Notes: generated by a model from the letters alone, not told the origin. Counted from the first letter of the stretch, positions 23,269-39,702 are shown. The stretch is DNA of 64,000 bases from Bacteriovorax sp. BSW11_IV (GCF_000447755.1 NZ_AUNE01000045.1:62001-126000), one strand, 5' to 3'. Translations and numbers: made by a program.

Positions 23269-24069
23269 TTAGACCCCCAAATTCGTTACTGGCACGAGTT
23301 GGATATTTAAATTGTAGACCTCTGTGGCCTCGATCCCATTTAGTATTTTTGTCATACTTTTTTTGAAATCTTTAATCAAAAGCTTCGCTTCTCTTAGCTT
23401 TAGAGGGTCTGTTGGAATAGTAATAGAAGAGATATCCCTTTCTAAGATATGGATTGTCTCTAGCTTTTCTAGTGCTTGATAGATGCAATCAGCGTTGGCC
23501 TTTTTAATGATCTCTGAAGGGATATCATTAGAAGTTGTAAGGGATTTAAAATTTCCTATTAATTCACCTGAATGGGCATCTCTCGTGACGTAGCCCCAAT
23601 TGAGAAGACCATTTAGGACTTCAATTGTTCGCTCTTCAGAAATATTTAATTTTCTAGCAATCCATGTGGTGTCACTTTTAAAATTTTTTAATTTTAATAA
23701 TGCCAAAATTGAAAAGTATTCCCAGTCACCAATTAAAGAGAATTCTTTTTGAGACAAGACCTTTTGAAAGTTTTGCTTCTTTCTTCTTCTATCGACTTTT
23801 TGATCGTATTCGCGCTCAACCAAGCGAAGAAAGAAGTTTTTTTCTTCAGGATCGAGAAGCAAATTCGGAACAATTTCGATAGCGCGTTTTGGAGTAAGGG
23901 GAGCTGTTCCGTTGAAGATTTCTGTTAGTCTTCCGCTGGAGATGCCCAGCGTTCGGGCGTAAGATCTTTTTGAGAAGCGGCAGTTCTTTTGTCTGCGTTT
24001 TTCATAATCTTTCTTGAGTATTTCAATTGAACTAATGTTATTTATATTACTTTCCATGGGCCGGATCAT
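23269..24069 (-). CDS. TIGR02147-family (DUF4423) regulator
   Basis: A 266-residue protein. The N-terminal segment FSKRSYARTLGISSGRLTEIFNG is a helix-turn-helix and residues 120-260 match the DUF4423/TIGR02147 domain, ending in the typical YNLNIQLVPVT. The family is abundant in Fibrobacter and Bdellovibrio-type bacteria and is thought to be regulatory; no member's mechanism is known to me. The start may be ATG 24069 or ATG 24057; neither has a good ribosome site, and a promoter-like pair just upstream would make the shorter form almost leaderless. Two exact 13-bp repeats upstream could be its operator. Confidence 0.8.
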   Translation of the reverse strand: MIRPMESNINNISSIEILKKDYEKRRQKNCRFSKRSYARTLGISSGRLTEIFNGTAPLTPKRAIEIVPNLLLDPEEKNFFLRLVEREYDQKVDRRRKKQNFQKVLSQKEFSLIGDWEYFSILALLKLKNFKSDTTWIARKLNISEERTIEVLNGLLNWGYVTRDAHSGELIGNFKSLTTSNDIPSEIIKKANADCIYQALEKLETIHILERDISSITIPTDPLKLREAKLLIKDFKKSMTKILNGIEATEVYNLNIQLVPVTNLGV

Positions 24070-30050: not shown

Positions 30051-31130
30051 TTATTGTCTCACGACCATAATTTGATTAATTTTCGCCTTACCAAATTGAG
30101 AGATAAGCTCAATACTTGAAGCGTAATCCTCTACTGTAACGATATAGCTTGGGTCTCTACCTGGAACATAGATCGAACCTTTAATATCTCCATTAATCAT
30201 GACCTCAAATTTGGCATCATTTCTAACACCTTCAGCTGTGATGATTAATTTTTTTACATAACTTGGATTTGGAATGAGAATCGATTTCGTTGTTCCAGCT
30301 TCAAGAATAATAGATCTACTTAAAAGTGAAACAGTTGTTGTGTAATCATCATTTGTATTGTCATGACGAGAAGAGAAATCCGAAGGGCATCTCCAAGAGT
30401 TGTTCACAACTTCAGCGGCCTGGGCGTAGAAACTTCTGAAAGCTAGGGCCTCATTTGGGTATCTATTTGTTTCAATATCAGTTGCAAGTTCCTCTAGAGC
30501 AATAATTTTACAAGAGTAAAATTGTGCAAGGATACTTTCTTTAAGGTCTGCAGCAGCATTTAAGCTTGTCATCTTAAGTCCTGTTGTAAAAGTATTAACA
30601 GAACCTTTTGGATAAACCATACCACCGTGATTAATTGCAAAAGCATCTAAGATCATTTGAACTTGTTTAAAAGCAAAACGAGTGAACAATCTCTCAAATT
30701 TTTCAGTCGTAGCTCTACAGTATCCACAACGAGTATTCTCAAAGAATGGAATGTCTAGATTGTTTGCGACTTCAATAATAAATTCATAATAAGCATTCAA
30801 AAAATAGTTTAGTGCTCTCAGATGATTCTTATCTGTTGATGTTGCTAGCTTTACAGAAGTTGCAATATCAGCGCCTCTTTTAATCGCCTTAATAGTTAAA
30901 GGAAGAGATTGAAATTTTTGAGTATTTTCTGTCGCAACTTTTAGACCTTCTTCAAGTAGATTGATACTTCCTTGAATGTCATTGCTTAAGTAGAACATAA
31001 GAGCTTGAGACTTCGCTTTTTGCAATTGAGTAAGTTTATCCTTACACCAAATGTCGAAATTTTCTTCCGAATGAGCAGCTTGTGAGAATGTCAAAAAAAC
31101 AAGTGTGATAAAAAAAACTATCTTTTTCAT
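30051..31130 (-). CDS. Secreted helical Cys-motif protein (family member A)
   Basis: 359 residues with a signal peptide (MKKIVFFITLVFLTFSQAAHS). Residues 25-260 are helical, with conserved IWC, RCGYCRATTEKFERLFTRFA, a VYPKG turn and YSCKI. The same pattern is found in the protein starting at 33319 and, without the Cys, in the one starting at 35059. The C-terminal 90 residues are a separate beta domain (SIILEAGTTKSILIPNPSYVKK onward). No known domain was recognised. It lies on the leftward arm of a divergent secreted gene cluster and ends opposite the kinase gene. Confidence 0.7.
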   Translation of the reverse strand: MKKIVFFITLVFLTFSQAAHSEENFDIWCKDKLTQLQKAKSQALMFYLSNDIQGSINLLEEGLKVATENTQKFQSLPLTIKAIKRGADIATSVKLATSTDKNHLRALNYFLNAYYEFIIEVANNLDIPFFENTRCGYCRATTEKFERLFTRFAFKQVQMILDAFAINHGGMVYPKGSVNTFTTGLKMTSLNAAADLKESILAQFYSCKIIALEELATDIETNRYPNEALAFRSFYAQAAEVVNNSWRCPSDFSSRHDNTNDDYTTTVSLLSRSIILEAGTTKSILIPNPSYVKKLIITAEGVRNDAKFEVMINGDIKGSIYVPGRDPSYIVTVEDYASSIELISQFGKAKINQIMVVRQ

Positions 31131-31235
31131 AGGCCCTCCCTAAGTGACTTATTGTTTTGTTGGAGAGTTTTTAGAAAAAAAAAGAAGAAGTCTCAAGAGG
31201 GAGCAATGCGATAACGCTGACAAAGAGTCAGCAGG

Positions 31236-32213
31236 TTAAAATTTAAAGAGGACATTTGTCCAAAGTGAATCAGTTACTTCATTGATATCATTAGTTATTT
31301 TGAAAGGTGTCTCTCTTTTTATCCAGAATGAGAGAAGACTTTTTGTTTCTAAATTCATTCCCAATTGTTTGTTGATAAAAAATACACTGTAGGGATGAAT
31401 TCCTATTGTTTGAATTTCTGAGATTGAAGTGATTTCTTTTTGCTTAATGGTAGAAGGAATTAGATAATAACTGTCATCCAATTCACCATCGACAATATTG
31501 TAGCTATTAATAACTCTTGATAGATTAAAGTAGATAAAAGAATTAGAGAAATTCTTGCATTGAATTTTATCTACTGTAATGGATTGGAGAATTTTGTCGA
31601 TTAGTAAAATTCCTGAGAGAGATTCCTTATTCGTAATTAATTTCCAAAAAAGATCTTTATTTCCACATTGTCTTGTTAGGTAGTGGAAATATAAAAAATG
31701 TTGCCCATAGAGAGGGCGATCTACATCTGTGAATGTATATTCAGAGAAAAAATAAGCATTAGAGTTAAAACTCGCAGATACATTGGTTGTATTATAGCGA
31801 TTGAATAAATAATACTCAAAAAGTTGAGCTAGGCCTTCTTTTATCCAGCTCTTCTCGTTGGGATTAAACTCATTGTGAATTGCATGAAAAATCTCATGAG
31901 CTAAAACTTGTTCAAACTCAGATGAATGAATAAGTTTGTTACTTAACAGAATTATCTTTTGATCTTCGTTACTAACAAAAAGACCATCAATTTGTTTTGT
32001 GTCAGTAATTTTAATCTTAAATTTCTGCTCGTGATCTTTTAAAGGAGAATTTTCTAAGAACGCATTTAGCTTATTTTGAAGCGCAATAGTTCGCTTGCTA
32101 ATTTCTTTTACGTAATTTTGATTTTCATTTTGAAGGATTTCTATATGCAACTTTGCCACACTTTGCAGTGAGAATAAGCTTAATAAAAAAAGTATTAGTA
32201 GTTTTGTGCACAT
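31236..32213 (-). CDS. Secreted gluzincin-like metallopeptidase
   Basis: 325 residues with a signal peptide (MCTKLLILFLLSLFSLQSVA). The zinc motif VLAHEIFHAIHNEF is near residue 105, and WIKEGLAQLFEYYLF about 20 residues later supplies the Glu ligand, the pattern of the peptidase MA-like superfamily (HExxH plus EGLAQ). The C-terminal half has little recognisable. It is first on the leftward arm and divergent from the second TIGR02147 gene, with a 205-bp region between them. A small hairpin (GCTGAC/GTCAGC, 31216-31232) follows it but has no T run. Confidence 0.75.
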   Translation of the reverse strand: MCTKLLILFLLSLFSLQSVAKLHIEILQNENQNYVKEISKRTIALQNKLNAFLENSPLKDHEQKFKIKITDTKQIDGLFVSNEDQKIILLSNKLIHSSEFEQVLAHEIFHAIHNEFNPNEKSWIKEGLAQLFEYYLFNRYNTTNVSASFNSNAYFFSEYTFTDVDRPLYGQHFLYFHYLTRQCGNKDLFWKLITNKESLSGILLIDKILQSITVDKIQCKNFSNSFIYFNLSRVINSYNIVDGELDDSYYLIPSTIKQKEITSISEIQTIGIHPYSVFFINKQLGMNLETKSLLSFWIKRETPFKITNDINEVTDSLWTNVLFKF

Positions 32214-32418
32214 GTTGACTGGCTTTTAGCAAATTATGGGGCGAAATAAAGAGAAAATTGTCATCAATCTGAGTTAAGTGATTAAAAAGAGATGAGAACT
32301 GTAATAAATACATGTTTTTGAGTGCTGACTGTGAGTCTGCGGAAAAAGACCATGCTTACTTGCACAGTATTCAAAAGTGATTTAGAAGTGCACAAATTTT
32401 AAATGTGGACGACTACTA
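32214..32418. promoter_or_regulatory. Divergent control region of the secreted cluster
   Basis: 205 bp between the metallopeptidase and TIGR02147 start codons, with promoters expected in both directions. TGCACA occurs at 32361-32366 and 32389-32394 (28 bp apart), and again overlapping the metallopeptidase start codon within the palindrome TGTGCACA (32205-32212). These may be operator half-sites; no convincing -35/-10 pair was identified. Confidence 0.4.
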
Positions 32419-33315
32419 ATGATTAATCATGAAGCTGTGACAGATATTTCTCAAAAACAAACCAAACCTTTGGTGTTTGATTTTGTTAACTATAGAGAGT
32501 TTCTACATGCCTCGTATATTTATCTCAATACTCTTAATCCGAGTTTTTCGGAAACGGCGTTTATTAGAAAGGCCGGCTATGGGGCAAATAGCAGAGGTTA
32601 CTTCAAGCTCATAGTTTCTGGAAAAAGAAACTTATCAAGTTCGGCCATCCTTGGATTTGGACAAGCTTTAAAGCTATCAGTTAAAGAACTAGAGTATTTT
32701 GAGAACCTTGTTCTATTTAATCAAGGCAAGAATCAAAAAGATAAGGCCTATTATTTTGAAAAGCTTTCTTCTAAAATTAAAGGAAAAGAGACCGAGGCCT
32801 ATAGCATTCTAAAGTCTCAGTACAACTATCTTTCAAAATGGTATCTCATCGCAATACGTGAAATGGTTTCATTAAAAGAATTTAAAAATGACTATGAATG
32901 GATTTCTAAAAAACTTAGAAATGATGTTTCTCCAGTACAAGTTAAAGAAGCAGTTGAAGATTTATTAAAACTAGGTCTTCTTGAGTTGAATAAGGGCAAA
33001 CTGTCACAGGTAGATAAACTTCTTCATTTCTCTGACTCTTCTTTGAATTACACCGTTGTGAATAATATTCATTCTCAAATGCTAGAGAAAACAAATCAAC
33101 TCCTCGATAGAGATGATTACAATTACAGAAGTGCAAGCTCTGTCACACTTTCTTGCAAAAAAGAAGATTTTGCAAAGATTAGACAAGAAATCGCTAAATT
33201 TAGAGAAGATATTCTCAACAAATATGGAACAGAAATTAATGGTCTCGATACTGTCCTTCATTTAGGTGTTCAATTGATTCATCTAACTGAACCAGTGAAG
33301 AGCAAGGGAGAATAA
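32419..33315 (+). CDS. TIGR02147-family (DUF4423) regulator
   Basis: 298 residues. The N-terminal part (FDFVNYREFLHASYIYLN...RKAGYGANSRGYFKLIVSGKRNLS) is the helix-turn-helix of this family. The rest matches DUF4423, with the C-terminal TVLHLGVQLIHLT. It is clearly a paralog of the protein at 23269-24069 but not a close one. It is the first gene of a four-gene rightward operon whose other products are all secreted, 3 bp from the next gene. It probably controls this cluster and perhaps the divergent arm; this is inferred from position. Confidence 0.85.
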   Translation: MINHEAVTDISQKQTKPLVFDFVNYREFLHASYIYLNTLNPSFSETAFIRKAGYGANSRGYFKLIVSGKRNLSSSAILGFGQALKLSVKELEYFENLVLFNQGKNQKDKAYYFEKLSSKIKGKETEAYSILKSQYNYLSKWYLIAIREMVSLKEFKNDYEWISKKLRNDVSPVQVKEAVEDLLKLGLLELNKGKLSQVDKLLHFSDSSLNYTVVNNIHSQMLEKTNQLLDRDDYNYRSASSVTLSCKKEDFAKIRQEIAKFREDILNKYGTEINGLDTVLHLGVQLIHLTEPVKSKGE

Positions 33316-33318
33316 TAT

Positions 33319-34251
33319 ATGAAGTGGCTAGTGGTGTTTGCTGTTGCTTTCACTCAATTTTCTTATGCAAATGAAGAGAGTAAGAAAGAAATTACTTCTA
33401 TTGAAGAATTGATTCAAATTATGAATGATTCACGAAAAGTTGAAGAGGTTGTTCGCGTTGAAGAGCAAATTTTAAGTAGAGTCGAATCTGGCACGAATAT
33501 TGGCGGCGGTTTTGCGACAAGTGACGATCTGAGTATTTGGTGTAATACGAGCAATATGATTCTTGAAACATATTACACTGAGGCCAAATTCCAAGGGAAA
33601 AACTTCTTTGAGGCCAATAAGTTATTAAGTAAAGGTTTATACTTGGCCCATGGCAAGATTGCGAATGAGAATAACTCAACATTTACACTCAAGGCGCTTG
33701 CAAGAGGTTTAGAACTTGTAAATCTAATTGGTGCCATTGATCCAATGAGTAGCAAAGAGTCATTAGAGTCTGCCAATAATGTGCTCAATCATTACTATGA
33801 TTTTATTTTAAGTGCAGTTACTAAGTCACTTGATCTTTCAGCTGTGATTCCTTTGTTATCGGACTTAGAAAGTTGTTCTGATTGCAGAGTCGATTTCGAG
33901 AAATTCGAATACCGATTTGTTGAATACGCGAAAATGCAGTTGAAATTCATTTCGATCGCTACTTTAGGAAAGAAAAATGGTGTTTTTTATCCAGTAGGAA
34001 ACTCTGAACATTTTTTAAGAGCACTTGAGTTGTTTTCAGAAAAAACAAAAGAAGATCTGAGAAACTCACTTTGGAAAGAGCGTTTTTCATGTGCAATTGC
34101 TGAACTAGATGTTCTTTATATGCAATTGACTCTTTTCAATCAAGGAAGTCGCTCAATGTATAGAGGTCGAATTGAAATGGCCGTTCAAGGTTTTGCACAA
34201 AAAATGAACACAATTATAAATGAATTAAATAACGAAGAAAGTTGTAAATAA
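33319..34251 (+). CDS. Secreted helical Cys-motif protein (family member B)
   Basis: 310 residues with a signal peptide (MKWLVVFAVAFTQFSYA). From residue 70 on it aligns with member A: SIWCN, then LKALARGLELVNLI, then CSDCRVDFEKFEYRFVEYAKMQLKFI, FYPVGN and FSCAIAEL. It lacks the beta C-terminal domain of A and has instead a short N-terminal linker. The four conserved Cys suggest two disulfides or a metal site. Second gene of the TIGR02147 operon. Function unknown. Confidence 0.7.
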   Translation: MKWLVVFAVAFTQFSYANEESKKEITSIEELIQIMNDSRKVEEVVRVEEQILSRVESGTNIGGGFATSDDLSIWCNTSNMILETYYTEAKFQGKNFFEANKLLSKGLYLAHGKIANENNSTFTLKALARGLELVNLIGAIDPMSSKESLESANNVLNHYYDFILSAVTKSLDLSAVIPLLSDLESCSDCRVDFEKFEYRFVEYAKMQLKFISIATLGKKNGVFYPVGNSEHFLRALELFSEKTKEDLRNSLWKERFSCAIAELDVLYMQLTLFNQGSRSMYRGRIEMAVQGFAQKMNTIINELNNEESCK

Positions 34252-34265
34252 ACAGGGGAAATCTT

Positions 34266-35048
34266 ATGAAAATGTTTCTGGTAATTTCTCTTTCAATTCT
34301 GACAAGTATGACAAATGCTTGGGAATTTAAAGAAGGGACCTATGAGTCTACAATTAGTAAGTCGAGCTCTCAGAGTGCTTATCTAATGCTAAAACAAGTG
34401 AGTGGAAGAAAGGGGAGTTTTATTGCTGCTTTGATTCTCGCTGATAAAAAAGAACAAACAAAAGATGCCTATCTTTATTTGATGGATGCACAAAGGGGAG
34501 GGTCTTACTCTCTTACTCCATTGAGTGTTGTCGATAAGGGCGAAGTTGGTATCGACGATGATAATCCGTCTTTAGTAATCATCAAAGATGGAAAAGAGAA
34601 TAACTTTAAAGTTACTTCAAGCCAATCTGGTAATGTCCTTGGGTATAACGGATCAATTTCTTTCGAAGAGGGGATGAGTCAAAGATATTCTTGGCAACTA
34701 TCAAAAAATGGTGACTACAGCAGAACGGGTCAAGAAGAAGAGAAGGCCATGATTTCAATTGCGGTGAGCTCTCATGACATTGAAAATGATGCAGTCTTTG
34801 AAATTCCTAATGATATTGTTGGAATTTTTAAAATTAGACAGAAGATGCCTTTTGTTTACTCAATCAACTCTAACAAGCTGCTTGCTACTGGTTATGAGAG
34901 AGAGGAAGTTCCAGCTAGATTAGCTATTTATGTGCAAGAGAATCGCAAAAAAGGTTTTTCTAAAAAATGGGTTAAGAAACAAGATCTAATCTTATTGATC
35001 TCTCCAAAAGGAAAAGATCACTTTAGACCACTAGTACGTAAGCAGTAG
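34266..35048 (+). CDS. Secreted beta-rich protein of unknown function
   Basis: 260 residues with a signal peptide (MKMFLVISLSILTSMTNA). The mature part is mostly beta (YESTISKSSSQSAYLMLKQ, GSFIAALILADKK, YSWQLSKNGDYSR) with a basic C-terminus (KKGFSKKWVKKQ...RPLVRKQ). No Cys in the mature part and no recognised domain. It lies 14 bp after the Cys-motif gene and 10 bp before the next, so it belongs to the same operon. It could be a periplasmic partner of its neighbours; not established. Confidence 0.65.
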   Translation: MKMFLVISLSILTSMTNAWEFKEGTYESTISKSSSQSAYLMLKQVSGRKGSFIAALILADKKEQTKDAYLYLMDAQRGGSYSLTPLSVVDKGEVGIDDDNPSLVIIKDGKENNFKVTSSQSGNVLGYNGSISFEEGMSQRYSWQLSKNGDYSRTGQEEEKAMISIAVSSHDIENDAVFEIPNDIVGIFKIRQKMPFVYSINSNKLLATGYEREEVPARLAIYVQENRKKGFSKKWVKKQDLILLISPKGKDHFRPLVRKQ

Positions 35049-35058
35049 GGAGTAAGAA

Positions 35059-36540
35059 ATGAAACTTAGATATACATTTTTATTAGTAATTTTATCAGTA
35101 ATTTTTAATATTTCAGTTACTCATGCAGAAGAGGATATTTCAACGCCTACATCTGTACTAAATGAAGGACTTGAAACTCAACTCACAGATGAGCAGATTG
35201 AATCAATTCTTCCTTGGGCGAATAACTCGAAAATATACATTGAAGATCTAATCTCTTTGATTAAATCAATGACTTTTGAGCAAGCATTAATGGAACTAGA
35301 AAGAGGGTATACTGATGTAGTTTTAAGTAGCGCACCAGATAATGCTCAAGTTCTACTAAGATTCTCGCTAAATAGAGCTCTAGAATATTCTAAAATTCTT
35401 TCGGCAGAAGTTGAAAAAGATGCAGTTGGTATTGTTGATATTAAAACACGTTTTTTAAAAGTTGCTGCAGACTTGGCCCTAGAGCACTTTCAAAGTGATA
35501 TTCTTCTTTTAGAGAAGAAGACGGATAATATTGTTGATTTAAAGTTTAAGTACGCCATCTTTGGTATCAGTTTTGCTGATAAGTTCCTACATGTTGCAAG
35601 ATCTATCGTCGATGCGAGTGCTCAACACCGTATTTATCTAACTACTTTAAAGTTTCTTCAGTTGGATTTATATAGAGATTTAGATCGTAATAGATTTGCA
35701 GTTGAAATTAGAAAAATTCAAAATTTAGTTAGAACTTTGGAATTATCAAAACCAAGTTCTGATTTCGACATAGTTGATGATGTTAGACAAATGAAATCTT
35801 TGATCAAAAGTCTTAGATTAAGTAATCTGCTGACTGAACTTAATGATGAGAAAGCGAGAATTTTACAAGAGATCGTTACTCAAAGAAACAGTGAAATTGA
35901 AAGACAAAAGTTAGAAGAGTTAAAAAAGAATAAAAAAGTTTTTGCTAAGTATATTCAAAGTTTAACTGGGAAAGCATTTGAATCTCCAACTCGTGATTTC
36001 TATAGAGGTGAGGATGTCGGTTATTTAGAAAGTGAACAAAAATTTATTGAAGGTAAGTTTGTTCAAAATGTTTCTGATAAAGAAGTGTTGCTGCTAATTA
36101 ATGGTTCTCCTTTGAAAGTTAATAAAAACATGGTTGTTCATAAAAATATTTGTACTCTGGGATTTTGCACTGGAGATAAAGCTTACTCGGTCAAAATGGT
36201 GAATGAATATAACTATAGCTATAGAAGATACTTTGAAACTGCAAGAATTTATTCTGGTGAAGTTGTAGGTGGTTCTATTGATGATGATATTCTTCTTAAA
36301 AGCGTTAATGGAGAAAGTGTTACGTATCAGTTCTTGTCTATCAAGGATAGTCGTTACTATGTCGTTGGTTGTTCTGGTCCAGCCTGCGTTGGCGATGCTG
36401 TTTATGTTTTGAATAAAGAATATAAGTCTAGTAAGATCGTAGGAATTGACGGAGAAGGTAAATATTTGATTGAAGCCGTAAATTCAAATGATTCTGTAGT
36501 AATGGATGCTTACTCAGAAAGTGATATTATTAAATTATAA
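35059..36540 (+). CDS. Secreted two-part protein: helical family domain plus SH3-like beta repeats (member C)
   Basis: 493 residues with a signal peptide (MKLRYTFLLVILSVIFNISVTHA). Residues 50-260 are helical and follow the same order of helices as members A and B (for example FKYAIFGISFADKFLHVARSIVDA and HRIYLTTLKFLQLDLYRDL) but without the Cys. A coiled-coil segment (EIERQKLEELKKNKK) joins this to three or so beta segments with LINGSPLKVNKN, YYVVGCSGPACVGDAVYVLN and similar, which look like SH3-type or TonB-box-free wall-binding modules. Last gene of the operon, followed by a terminator. Confidence 0.65.
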   Translation: MKLRYTFLLVILSVIFNISVTHAEEDISTPTSVLNEGLETQLTDEQIESILPWANNSKIYIEDLISLIKSMTFEQALMELERGYTDVVLSSAPDNAQVLLRFSLNRALEYSKILSAEVEKDAVGIVDIKTRFLKVAADLALEHFQSDILLLEKKTDNIVDLKFKYAIFGISFADKFLHVARSIVDASAQHRIYLTTLKFLQLDLYRDLDRNRFAVEIRKIQNLVRTLELSKPSSDFDIVDDVRQMKSLIKSLRLSNLLTELNDEKARILQEIVTQRNSEIERQKLEELKKNKKVFAKYIQSLTGKAFESPTRDFYRGEDVGYLESEQKFIEGKFVQNVSDKEVLLLINGSPLKVNKNMVVHKNICTLGFCTGDKAYSVKMVNEYNYSYRRYFETARIYSGEVVGGSIDDDILLKSVNGESVTYQFLSIKDSRYYVVGCSGPACVGDAVYVLNKEYKSSKIVGIDGEGKYLIEAVNSNDSVVMDAYSESDIIKL

Positions 36541-36545
36541 AAAAT

Positions 36546-36575
36546 AAAGGCCTCTTTTACGAGGCCTTTTTATTT
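36546..36575 (+). terminator. Bidirectional rho-independent terminator
   Basis: AAAGGCCTC / GAGGCCTTT stem of 9 bp with a 6-nt loop, followed by TTATTTGATTTT on the plus strand and by TTATTTTTTAT on the minus strand. It ends the TIGR02147 operon and overlaps the last codons of the converging small gene. Confidence 0.85.
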
Positions 36576-37229: not shown

Positions 37230-38219
37230 CTAAAAGTTGCCAATAACTCCCGCAAACATACTGAAGTTTGTTGTGAGATCTACAGCAATAGTGTCATTAG
37301 TTTCATTCCAATAGCTAGGGATTTGCGCCTCTGTAGATGTTGTCATAGTAAAGGGAAACTTCATTGAAACATCTGCACCAACTGAAACAAAGTACTGATC
37401 ACTTGGAAGAAGTTTTTTTAATTGAAGAATAGTTCCAATATTTGAAGAGAAAGAAATACCATGGAAAAGTCTCTCTTCTTCACCGAGATCACCATCTTGT
37501 CTTACAAGATGCCTGTTGTATCCAACCTTGAGTCCGCCACGAATTCCCCATGAGTATTTTTCATTACGATAAAAATCATAGTTCAGGACAGGACCAAAAT
37601 TAATTTCGGTATGAGATTCTTTCACATAGCGATTATCACTTAATAAGAATTCACTTTCTTGGGAAAGAATTCCACCTTCGAATCCAAAGTAAAAGCGATT
37701 AGTCTTATCAAAGTTTGCTTTTTTAGCATAAAAACCAGTCAATCCGAATTGAGAAGAGAAGTTCTCTTTATTCAATTTTAAATTGTGCTGGTAGTGTTGT
37801 TTGAATGAACTTCCGTAGTGAAAGTTGAATGAGGCCAGTAGAGATTTTTCACTAGCAATGGGATAATTTCTCGGTAGCGGCTCTTCTAATCTATAGTCAG
37901 TAGGATCATTATTTAAAGCAATCATTGGTTCATCAAGCTCATTAAGATTGTTATGAACAACTTTAACGAACTTTATTGGAATATAGGCATCGGAGCCGTC
38001 CCTCGTTACCGTTTTAAAGAAACCCTGATCTTTTTCATAACCACTAAATTCTCTCCCATGTAAATAGATCACTTGTCCTCTTCTGAGTATTTGAAGTACA
38101 GAGGCTTCTTCAGAGGGGGATTGGTAAAGTGGTGCTTCCAAGACTACGACCATTGCTTTTGGTTTTGCAAAAGTTGTTATTGAAAATACTAGCATGGTCA
38201 CAGTTAAGGCTTTTTTCAT
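37230..38219 (-). CDS. Secreted protein with SH3-like domain and outer-membrane barrel
   Basis: 329 residues with a signal peptide (MKKALTVTMLVFSITTFA). Residues 22-90 resemble a bacterial SH3 domain (VVLEAPLYQSPSEEASVLQILRRGQVIYLHG...GFFKTVTRDGSDAYIP), of the kind that binds peptidoglycan or peptides. The rest alternates beta strands ending in Phe (SMFAGVIGNF), typical of a barrel. Its start overlaps the stop of the upstream barrel gene by 4 bp, so the two barrels are made together. Confidence 0.7.
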   Translation of the reverse strand: MKKALTVTMLVFSITTFAKPKAMVVVLEAPLYQSPSEEASVLQILRRGQVIYLHGREFSGYEKDQGFFKTVTRDGSDAYIPIKFVKVVHNNLNELDEPMIALNNDPTDYRLEEPLPRNYPIASEKSLLASFNFHYGSSFKQHYQHNLKLNKENFSSQFGLTGFYAKKANFDKTNRFYFGFEGGILSQESEFLLSDNRYVKESHTEINFGPVLNYDFYRNEKYSWGIRGGLKVGYNRHLVRQDGDLGEEERLFHGISFSSNIGTILQLKKLLPSDQYFVSVGADVSMKFPFTMTTSTEAQIPSYWNETNDTIAVDLTTNFSMFAGVIGNF

Positions 38220-39301
38220 ATTTCTAACTCAAATTTATAACCAAATACAATTCCTGTGGATGTATTTGATGTTTTTTGTGAATCAAAGTTTAAATCCATA
38301 TCATCAAAGTTTTTTACGCTTGATCGATAATTAGTATAATTTAATCCCGCAAAGAAAATACCATATGAAGATCGATATTCTGCATCTAGCTCTAAGGTCC
38401 AAAATGTTGTTGATAGATCATATGTTGAAGTTTCTGATGACGATTTAATTTGTAAGCTGTCATAGAGACTTCTACCGGCCTCTATACTTGGAGTTAGTGT
38501 CCATTTGTTATTGATTTCAAATGGCAACTTCGCAGTTATTCCATAGAACAAGCTATTCCAAGAAGCATCTGTTTCATTAAACTCATTACCCTGAATCGCG
38601 ATTGTCGCTCCAATTTTTAGCGGTATCGTCGTATCCACATATGTTTTATATTTCAAAGTTCTAGCGTTAACACTTGTATCTTGAAGATTTGAAATATTGT
38701 TTGCGAAATAGCCAATATCCTTATTTTCAAAGGAAACCTGCACGTGATGATCAGTGTTGAAAAAATAGTTACTGGCAATTGGTGCTTTATTTTTACTATG
38801 ATCAATAGTGTATCTGTTTTCTGGTTTTAATTTTATGACCTCTTCAATTGAGTTCAAATTACTTGTGAGTGTGAAGTACTTTTTATCGCCATTAGCATCT
38901 AAAATGTATGAATAGGGACTTTCTGGACCTGAAAGGATGGCCTTTACGTAAACTGCTTTTTGAATTGTGAAAACGTTATCATCACTAATACGCTGAAGGC
39001 GTGAGTTTTTTCTAATTACTGCTTGATAAGGTTTTATTGATTTTTGTGCGTCTTCGTAGTGGTATCTCACTTTAGTCTTCTGTGGAATTGGCTCACTACG
39101 ACGGTTGAATTTTTCAAGCTTTCGAATTTCTTCGAGACCTGATTGGGAAAGGCCACTCAAAGGCACAATTGGTTCTTCTTCAATAAATTCGTCGATCTTA
39201 TTGTCATCTAAATCTACAATGACTTCTCCATCTGGAAAAAGAACTTCGTCATAGGCGTGTGCTTGCACCACGATTGCCAGAAGGCATAACAATACTTTCA
39301 T
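38216..39301 (-). CDS. Secreted outer-membrane barrel protein
   Basis: 361 residues with a signal peptide (MKVLLCLLAIVVQAHA). I start at ATG 39301, inside the Nudix stop codon (ATGA), which places the signal peptide at the very N-terminus. After a charged linker, residues 180-361 have long amphipathic strands (WTLTPSIEAGRSLYD, FWTLELDAEYRSSYGIFFAGLNY) ending TGIVFGYKFELEI. It lies between the Nudix gene and another barrel gene with translational coupling on both sides. Function unknown. Confidence 0.7.
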   Translation of the reverse strand: MKVLLCLLAIVVQAHAYDEVLFPDGEVIVDLDDNKIDEFIEEEPIVPLSGLSQSGLEEIRKLEKFNRRSEPIPQKTKVRYHYEDAQKSIKPYQAVIRKNSRLQRISDDNVFTIQKAVYVKAILSGPESPYSYILDANGDKKYFTLTSNLNSIEEVIKLKPENRYTIDHSKNKAPIASNYFFNTDHHVQVSFENKDIGYFANNISNLQDTSVNARTLKYKTYVDTTIPLKIGATIAIQGNEFNETDASWNSLFYGITAKLPFEINNKWTLTPSIEAGRSLYDSLQIKSSSETSTYDLSTTFWTLELDAEYRSSYGIFFAGLNYTNYRSSVKNFDDMDLNFDSQKTSNTSTGIVFGYKFELEI

Positions 39302-39702
39302 GGTAAATCCTTCGTGAGACAAAAGGCTTCATAGTTTGAAGAATAGTGAAAGTGCTCTTGTTGAATTTCTTCAATAGGTATCCACTTAAAGTTTGCATGT
39401 TCTTCACTCAATCTAACCTGCGGTGTATTTTCAAGATTTACATAAAAAACTTTTTCGATAACATTTTTTTGCCAACGATCAAAAAATTTATACTCAATTT
39501 GAGTTTCAATTGGAGTCGCCACAATTCCTGTTTCCTCGAAGAGCTCTCTTTTAGCGCCATCGAAAAAGGATTCGCCAGCATCGACTGATCCTGTGACATT
39601 TTGCCAAATATGGTTTCTTTCTCCACTTGTTTGTAAGAGGAGGAGGTGTTTTTTGTTTTGATGCCTTGCGTATACAATTACCTGTGCTTTCATCTTTTCC
39701 AT
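39298..39702 (-). CDS. Nudix hydrolase, NudB-like
   Basis: 134 residues with a perfect Nudix box: Gly, five residues, Glu, seven residues, RELFEETGI (starts at GSVDAGESFFDGAK). The preceding WQNVTGSV matches the dihydroneopterin triphosphate pyrophosphatase NudB, which acts in folate synthesis, so that is the best guess. It could start at ATG 39702 or three codons later. Its stop overlaps the start of a secreted barrel gene (ATGA), an odd partner for a cytosolic housekeeping enzyme. Confidence 0.8.
   Translation of the reverse strand: MEKMKAQVIVYARHQNKKHLLLLQTSGERNHIWQNVTGSVDAGESFFDGAKRELFEETGIVATPIETQIEYKFFDRWQKNVIEKVFYVNLENTPQVRLSEEHANFKWIPIEEIQQEHFHYSSNYEAFCLTKDLP

Follow-up and report, generated by a model that had tools for sequence, protein, structure and literature searches.

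A linked set of exported helical-core proteins with a TIGR02147 regulator and a system-confined palindrome in Bacteriovorax and other Bdellovibrionota

Six genes and two palindromes at positions 30051-36540 of Bacteriovorax sp. BSW11_IV make up one gene system of the phylum Bdellovibrionota, which is gained or lost as a unit. The unit is well supported, and its function is inferred. The window, which here means the whole stretch of DNA that was analyzed, is 64,000 nucleotides long (NZ_AUNE01000045.1:62001-126000), and positions are counted from its first letter. A first-pass annotation, made from the sequence alone, had proposed that this region holds one exported system around three members of an undescribed helical family. 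All of its ORFs were confirmed at their coordinates. It had left out the gene at 34266-35048 (P0004) as a member, as well as the shared DNA element. The unit is arranged in two divergent arms with the following features.

30051-31130, minus strand: P0001, putatively exported Cys-helical protein with a C-terminal CBM6/36-like beta-sandwich, assigned by homology to P0002, AlphaFold2 and Foldseek; helical core at residues 25-242, beta-sandwich at residues 264-359 (about 30054-30341)
31215-31233, minus strand: O2 palindrome TGCTGACTCTTTGTCAGCG, in the gap that separates the peptidase gene from P0001, on the upstream side of P0001
31236-32213, minus strand: P0005, putatively exported HExxH zinc peptidase, with ligands (H106, E107, H110, E126) invariant in relatives
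32323-32341, plus strand: O1 palindrome TGCTGACTGTGAGTCTGCG, lying where the peptidase and regulator genes diverge
32419-33315, plus strand: P0006, TIGR02147/DUF4423 regulator, assigned by NCBIfam and Pfam matches
33319-34251, plus strand: P0002, putatively exported Cys-helical protein, core only, assigned by family match
34266-35048, plus strand: P0004, putatively exported beta-rich protein (BETA family), with relatives in 20 of 33 Cys-helical loci
35059-36540, plus strand: P0003, putatively exported modular protein, assigned by profile-profile comparison, AlphaFold2 core and tail diversity; helical core at residues 44-252 (about 35188-35814), SH3-like variable tail at residues about 304-493
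36546-36569, no strand assigned: terminator-like hairpin closing the rightward operon

The rightward operon runs from P0006 through P0002 and P0004 to P0003, with 3, 14 and 10 bases separating successive genes; the leftward arm consists of P0005 followed by P0001. A signal-like N-terminal stretch is present on P0001-P0005, and P0006 is without one. No Pfam or NCBIfam family scored above cut-off for P0001-P0004, and the cores of their relatives likewise gave none.

P0001 and P0002 are homologous, with a BLASTP E-value of 3e-20 and 30% identity over 206 amino acids. Direct BLAST of P0003 against P0001 or P0002 showed no pairwise similarity, and the kinship of P0003 to this pair rests only on profiles and predicted helix order. 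A profile-profile comparison was performed with 33 relatives of P0002 and 24 relatives of P0003, two disjoint sets with no common member. The Cys-helical and modular cores matched with 97% probability (E=4.7e-11, 206 columns); a small one-family subset gave only a weak match (34.6%). AlphaFold2 predicted the helices of P0001 at residues 25-48, 52-66, 78-96, 101-131, 142-164, 178-198, 202-221 and 227-242, and those of P0003 at residues 44-68, 73-90, 99-117, 125-142 (with 144-151 and 155-162), 164-180, 186-206, 210-229 and 235-252. The two cores show the same eight-helix order with similar helix lengths, and most of each core is predicted with a pLDDT of about 90 or higher. The overall pLDDT of the P0001 model is 84. 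In the P0003 model the core is mostly above 90, and the SH3-like tail is of low confidence, mostly below 60. These results support the earlier claim of one helix order in three proteins, at the profile level and by the predicted helices of P0001 and P0003. Different predicted folds had been named as a refutation, and this was not borne out.

The Cys of IWC and the Cys of YSC/FSC were invariant in 19 of 19 relatives. The first-pass annotation had listed IWC, CxxCR and YSC/FSC positions for the first two proteins, which held for that pair; only the IWC and YSC/FSC Cys residues are features of the family. CxxCR was rejected as a family motif, being local to P0001 and P0002 in the window. The first-pass annotation had also described the core as joined to a beta domain in one protein, as standing alone in another and as followed by SH3-like modules in the third. 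The first two statements held for P0001 and P0002, and the third held in part, given the low-confidence tail of P0003. Foldseek found no solved relative of the helical core in the PDB, and for P0003 no PDB match at E<=0.001. The claim that the family is undescribed also held in our searches, which returned no Pfam model, solved structure or paper.

The C-terminal domain of P0001 resembles CBM6/CBM36/CBM35 jelly rolls (Foldseek against the PDB, E about 3e-4 to 1e-3, TMt about 0.5). It matched no Pfam family, CBM families included, even at E=10. This beta-sandwich is found again in further exported proteins of the phylum, which are about 230-270 residues long (L190, L191, L192, L193, L194, L195 and L160:12006-12719), often N-terminal ahead of a helical part and sometimes in tandem pairs, again without a Pfam family match.

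The core of the modular family carries exchangeable tails. In 56 core-bearing modular proteins, the tails formed about 26 clusters without mutual BLAST similarity. Recognized tails were FGE-sulfatase/C-type-lectin-like (5.6e-52), Laminin_G_3 lectin (1.8e-16), HEAT repeats (9.5e-13), beta-propeller (3.6e-6) and SH3/KOW-like modules; by eye, others were Cys-rich tandem repeats or long tails with outer-membrane-barrel-like ends. One modular protein with an FGE-sulfatase/C-type-lectin-like tail lies at L060:1617-3170. This fold is also used by diversity-generating retroelements. All recognized tails are binding folds, and ligand binding itself is inferred. The pattern would fit a constant carrier whose tip meets changing ligands.

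A constant domain with exchangeable tails could also point to effector delivery like that of polymorphic toxins, in which a constant trafficking domain would carry effector tails released by the peptidase. The constant N-terminal domain, the exchangeable C-termini in tandem and the exported peptidase at the locus favor this reading. However, no toxin family was found among the Pfam-scanned tails, and those recognized are binding folds. Modular genes directly succeed one another in the gene maps with no small immunity gene behind each, and the unit has no secretion genes. We consider effector delivery unlikely, though possible.

We then compared the locus across the phylum. The Cys-helical profile was found in 31 of 369 genomes of Bdellovibrionota, in 21 of 182 genera and about ten families. 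The modular profile was found in 26 genomes, 24 of them within the Cys-helical set. Hosts include Bacteriovorax, Bacteriovoracaceae MAGs and deltaproteobacterial MAGs such as GWA2_38_16. The recurring gene order is the divergent peptidase, the regulator, the Cys-helical gene, BETA and one to five modular genes. At 33 Cys-helical loci, on many truncated contigs, the regulator was present in 26, the peptidase in 25, a modular gene in 23 and BETA in 20, and all five families occurred together in 16. As a control, none of 69 other TIGR02147 loci, mostly from Fibrobacterota, had any of the partners. The distances of regulator, Cys-helical protein and peptidase were correlated (r=0.88-0.92), and 0 of 5000 permutations were as high. 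Such correlation is expected from joint or vertical inheritance and alone is no proof of interaction. Several lineages (L062, L063, L056) hold parts without the rest, and not every part is always needed nearby. Signal-like N-termini were found in 43/44 Cys-helical proteins, 24/24 BETA proteins, 49/54 modular proteins, 22/32 peptidases and 0/36 regulators, by a crude rule that 43% of neighboring ORFs also pass.

Scattered or unlinked genes in relatives would have refuted the proposal, and this was not borne out: the five families are linked in about ten families of the phylum. The claim of one exported system is largely supported and is still a genomic inference. Secreted genes are common in these genomes, so that unrelated ones might be neighbors by chance. 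The conserved linkage, the correlated distances, an empty site in a relative and a genome-unique palindrome common to the cluster promoters all but exclude this explanation, and it was rejected.

The empty site is in a same-genus genome, G001, which has identical flank order and one unrelated gene in place of 30051-36540. Its left flank holds primase, TrmB and a histidine kinase, and its right flank a small protein, a barrel-like pair, NUDIX, M50, ScpA and ScpB. Therefore, 30051-36540 marks the borders of the unit. In another genome, G014, the system is at a different location. Phage or plasmid origin is unsupported, as P0002 was absent from the plasmids, P0003 from the phages and P0006 from the viral contigs searched.

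The barrel-like pair adjoins the cluster at 37230-38219 and 38216-39322 (minus strand). It is a conserved outer-membrane-barrel-like pair, the first with an SH3b-like N-terminus, and it occupies the same place in relatives without the cluster. Between TrmB or the histidine kinase and this pair, each relative examined holds different genes (30051-36540 in the window; L233, L234, L235 and L236). The site has the look of a variable insertion site.

The palindromes connect the promoters of the cluster. The pattern TGCTGACTNNNNGTCNNCR (TGCTGAC-N5-GTCAGCA type) was defined with the use of O1 but not of O2. It had exactly two matches in the 3.65-Mb genome, both at the cluster promoters. In g14, g24 and g5 the regulator gene is preceded by a site homologous to O1. 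In six related genomes all TGCTGACTNNNNGTCNNCR sites were at system loci, and four relatives without the system had no TGCTGACTNNNNGTCNNCR site; the reversed pattern gave 4 matches in 11 genomes. In the genus g14, regulator, BETA and modular genes have TGCTGACTNCAGTAGGC...AAAAATTACA in common upstream. A genome scan with this element, allowing one mismatch, found promoters of the system families, including scattered modular genes. It exposed two orphan BETA genes (L215, L208) and a decayed copy (L198), and it also returned three sites (L207, L197, L203) with no gene of the system beside them. The reversed pattern, used as a control, matched 0-5 times per genome, which indicates moderate specificity only. 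The strict g14 motif had no match in the window's genome, whose own variant has a different right half. In G014 and G046, modular or BETA genes are scattered, most with the system's element. An exact copy of the g14 element lies at L207:1501-1517 in G014 upstream of no recognizable gene. The decayed copy, at L198:1644-2228, consists of regulator, peptidase and Cys-helical remnants fused behind an intact DNA element.

The form in g24 and g5 is TGCTGAC-N5-GTCAGCA-like, followed at several promoters by AGTCAGC about 47-48 bases on. In deeper clades, different palindromes occupy the corresponding position. One further family has TTACC-N4-GGTAA there, confined to system loci; in still other clades CGTTCC-N7-GGAACG and CGAAACA-N2-TGTTTCG were seen by eye. 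A palindrome that is constant within regulator clades and different between them has the appearance expected of an autoregulatory site, which is an inference made without binding data. The cis-elements are well supported. Binding by the regulator and control of transcription are inferred from indirect evidence, namely clade-specific palindromes at its promoters. The palindrome could instead serve a different regulator or act as an RNA hairpin: binding by P0006 is still inferred, and O2 could form a hairpin just past the peptidase stop codon. This alternative seems improbable, since both O1 and the sites homologous to it are found in divergent promoter regions, the sites are confined to genomes and loci with the system and the palindrome differs between regulator clades.

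P0006 was identified as TIGR02147 by the curated NCBIfam cut-off (194.7 bits against 50, residues 19-291) and matched Pfam DUF4423 at 8.7e-30, so that the regulator claimed as first on the right arm held. No described target, operator or partner was found for the TIGR02147/DUF4423 family. The literature searched, with bioRxiv and many subscription papers outside its scope, did not mention TIGR02147. DUF4423 appears in one paper, for Bd3700, which is listed there with predator proteins that are upregulated while the predator grows inside its prey (PMC12546842). The window's genome has about nine TIGR02147 members in all, including a second, diverged one at window positions 23269-24069 (minus strand).

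The HExxH metallopeptidase claimed for the left arm also held. HExxH and the downstream E were invariant in 16 of 16 peptidases, which meets the gluzincin-type criterion. P0005 itself gave weak matches to NCBIfam MXAN_6640_HExxH (7.5e-8) and to the neutral metalloprotease 7bb8 in the PDB (2.1e-6). Six sibling loci (L160, L161, L163, L166, L167, L168) hold other exported proteins flanked by a TIGR02147 regulator and an HExxH peptidase, as though the cargo had been swapped. Because the pair also occurs with other exported cargo, it may represent an older regulatory and processing chassis. The same loci favor a peptidase-centred reading, in which helical and BETA proteins would be substrates, propeptide-like inhibitors or carriers of the peptidase and recognition would be secondary. 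Against it, the same DNA element also precedes solitary modular and BETA genes that have no peptidase gene next to them; we hold this reading to be unlikely, though possible.

The linked parts, common helical-core family, exchangeable tails, system-confined palindrome and conserved zinc ligands are shown by sequence. The export site, regulator binding, peptidase substrates and ligand binding are inferred; there are no binding, expression, cleavage or localization data. The likeliest reading is an apparatus for recognition or adhesion at the cell surface, made conditionally and equipped with variable tips and its own peptidase, for which, as an inferred function, we see as much reason for doubt as for belief. 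The TIGR02147 regulator would bind the palindrome (of the TGCTGAC-N5-GTCAGCA type in the window's genome), control itself and every other part, and switch them together in response to a particular condition. In the periplasm or at the surface, the BETA protein and the exported proteins with a helical core would then form an assembly in which the core provides constant docking and the tails (lectin-like, propeller, SH3-like, HEAT, repeats) bind ligands. The zinc peptidase may mature, trim or release its partner proteins.

An envelope stress and repair unit remains a possible but less likely alternative. Here the regulator would sense envelope damage, the peptidase would process or remove exported proteins that had been damaged, and both helical and modular proteins would serve as periplasmic scaffolds binding wall or outer membrane. 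A conditional-looking single regulon with an exported peptidase favors it, and SH3-like and HEAT tails could be scaffolds. However, the distribution is patchy, and about 26 tail clusters are an unusual diversity for housekeeping repair.

Since the recognition or adhesion apparatus is patchy (31/369 genomes), it is not a core predation factor. A bolder form of this reading is a phylum-specific polymorphic recognition system for prey, kin or surfaces, in which a constant exported helical docking domain would present exchangeable tips in one to five tandem, sometimes scattered, copies, under one TIGR02147 regulator acting via a private palindrome and with a dedicated exported peptidase. We lean slightly against it at present. 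The phylum includes predatory bacteria whose prey-recognition tools remain incompletely known. The locus defines an unrecognized exported protein family with a constant core and many different binding modules. Both these bacteria and Fibrobacter have many TIGR02147 regulators, for one clade of which the locus provides a candidate operator.

No description of the system was found in the literature searched (bioRxiv and many subscription papers were outside its scope). We count it as a new kind, because no known kind tested fits; its function is unproven. Like polymorphic toxin systems (PMC3482391), the modular family has a constant N-domain, exchangeable C-domains and tandem paralogues, but no toxin, immunity or secretion genes were detected in the unit. 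The chimeric (MAT) fibre proteins of Bdellovibrio (PMC10769870) are likewise exported, variable at their ends, found in predatory-lineage bacteria and possibly involved in recognition. However, the constant part of the modular family is a helical core that no family or PDB match connects to them. The trimeric fibre stalk that marks MAT proteins is not met by the core, which is predicted as an eight-helix domain; this model does not address oligomeric state. The beta domain of P0001 resembles CBM6/CBM36/CBM35 in a tentatively predicted jelly-roll fold but has no sequence match to a Pfam family, and carbohydrate binding is no more than inferred.

ImmR/ImmA and DdrO/IrrE are pairs of a regulator and an HExxH peptidase. 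The cluster resembles them in its adjoining regulator and peptidase genes and in the weak similarity of P0005 to Pfam Peptidase_M78 (E=0.0019, 18.4 bits, below the cut-off of 22). In contrast to these pairs, P0005 has a signal-like N-terminus, and therefore should not meet a cytoplasmic regulator, and the cluster has several exported partners. An ImmA/ImmR-type pair was rejected because the peptidase appears exported and the M78 score is below cut-off. By the curated cut-off, P0006 belongs to the TIGR02147 (Fsuc_second)/DUF4423 regulators, but its clade differs in having exported partners and its own palindrome.
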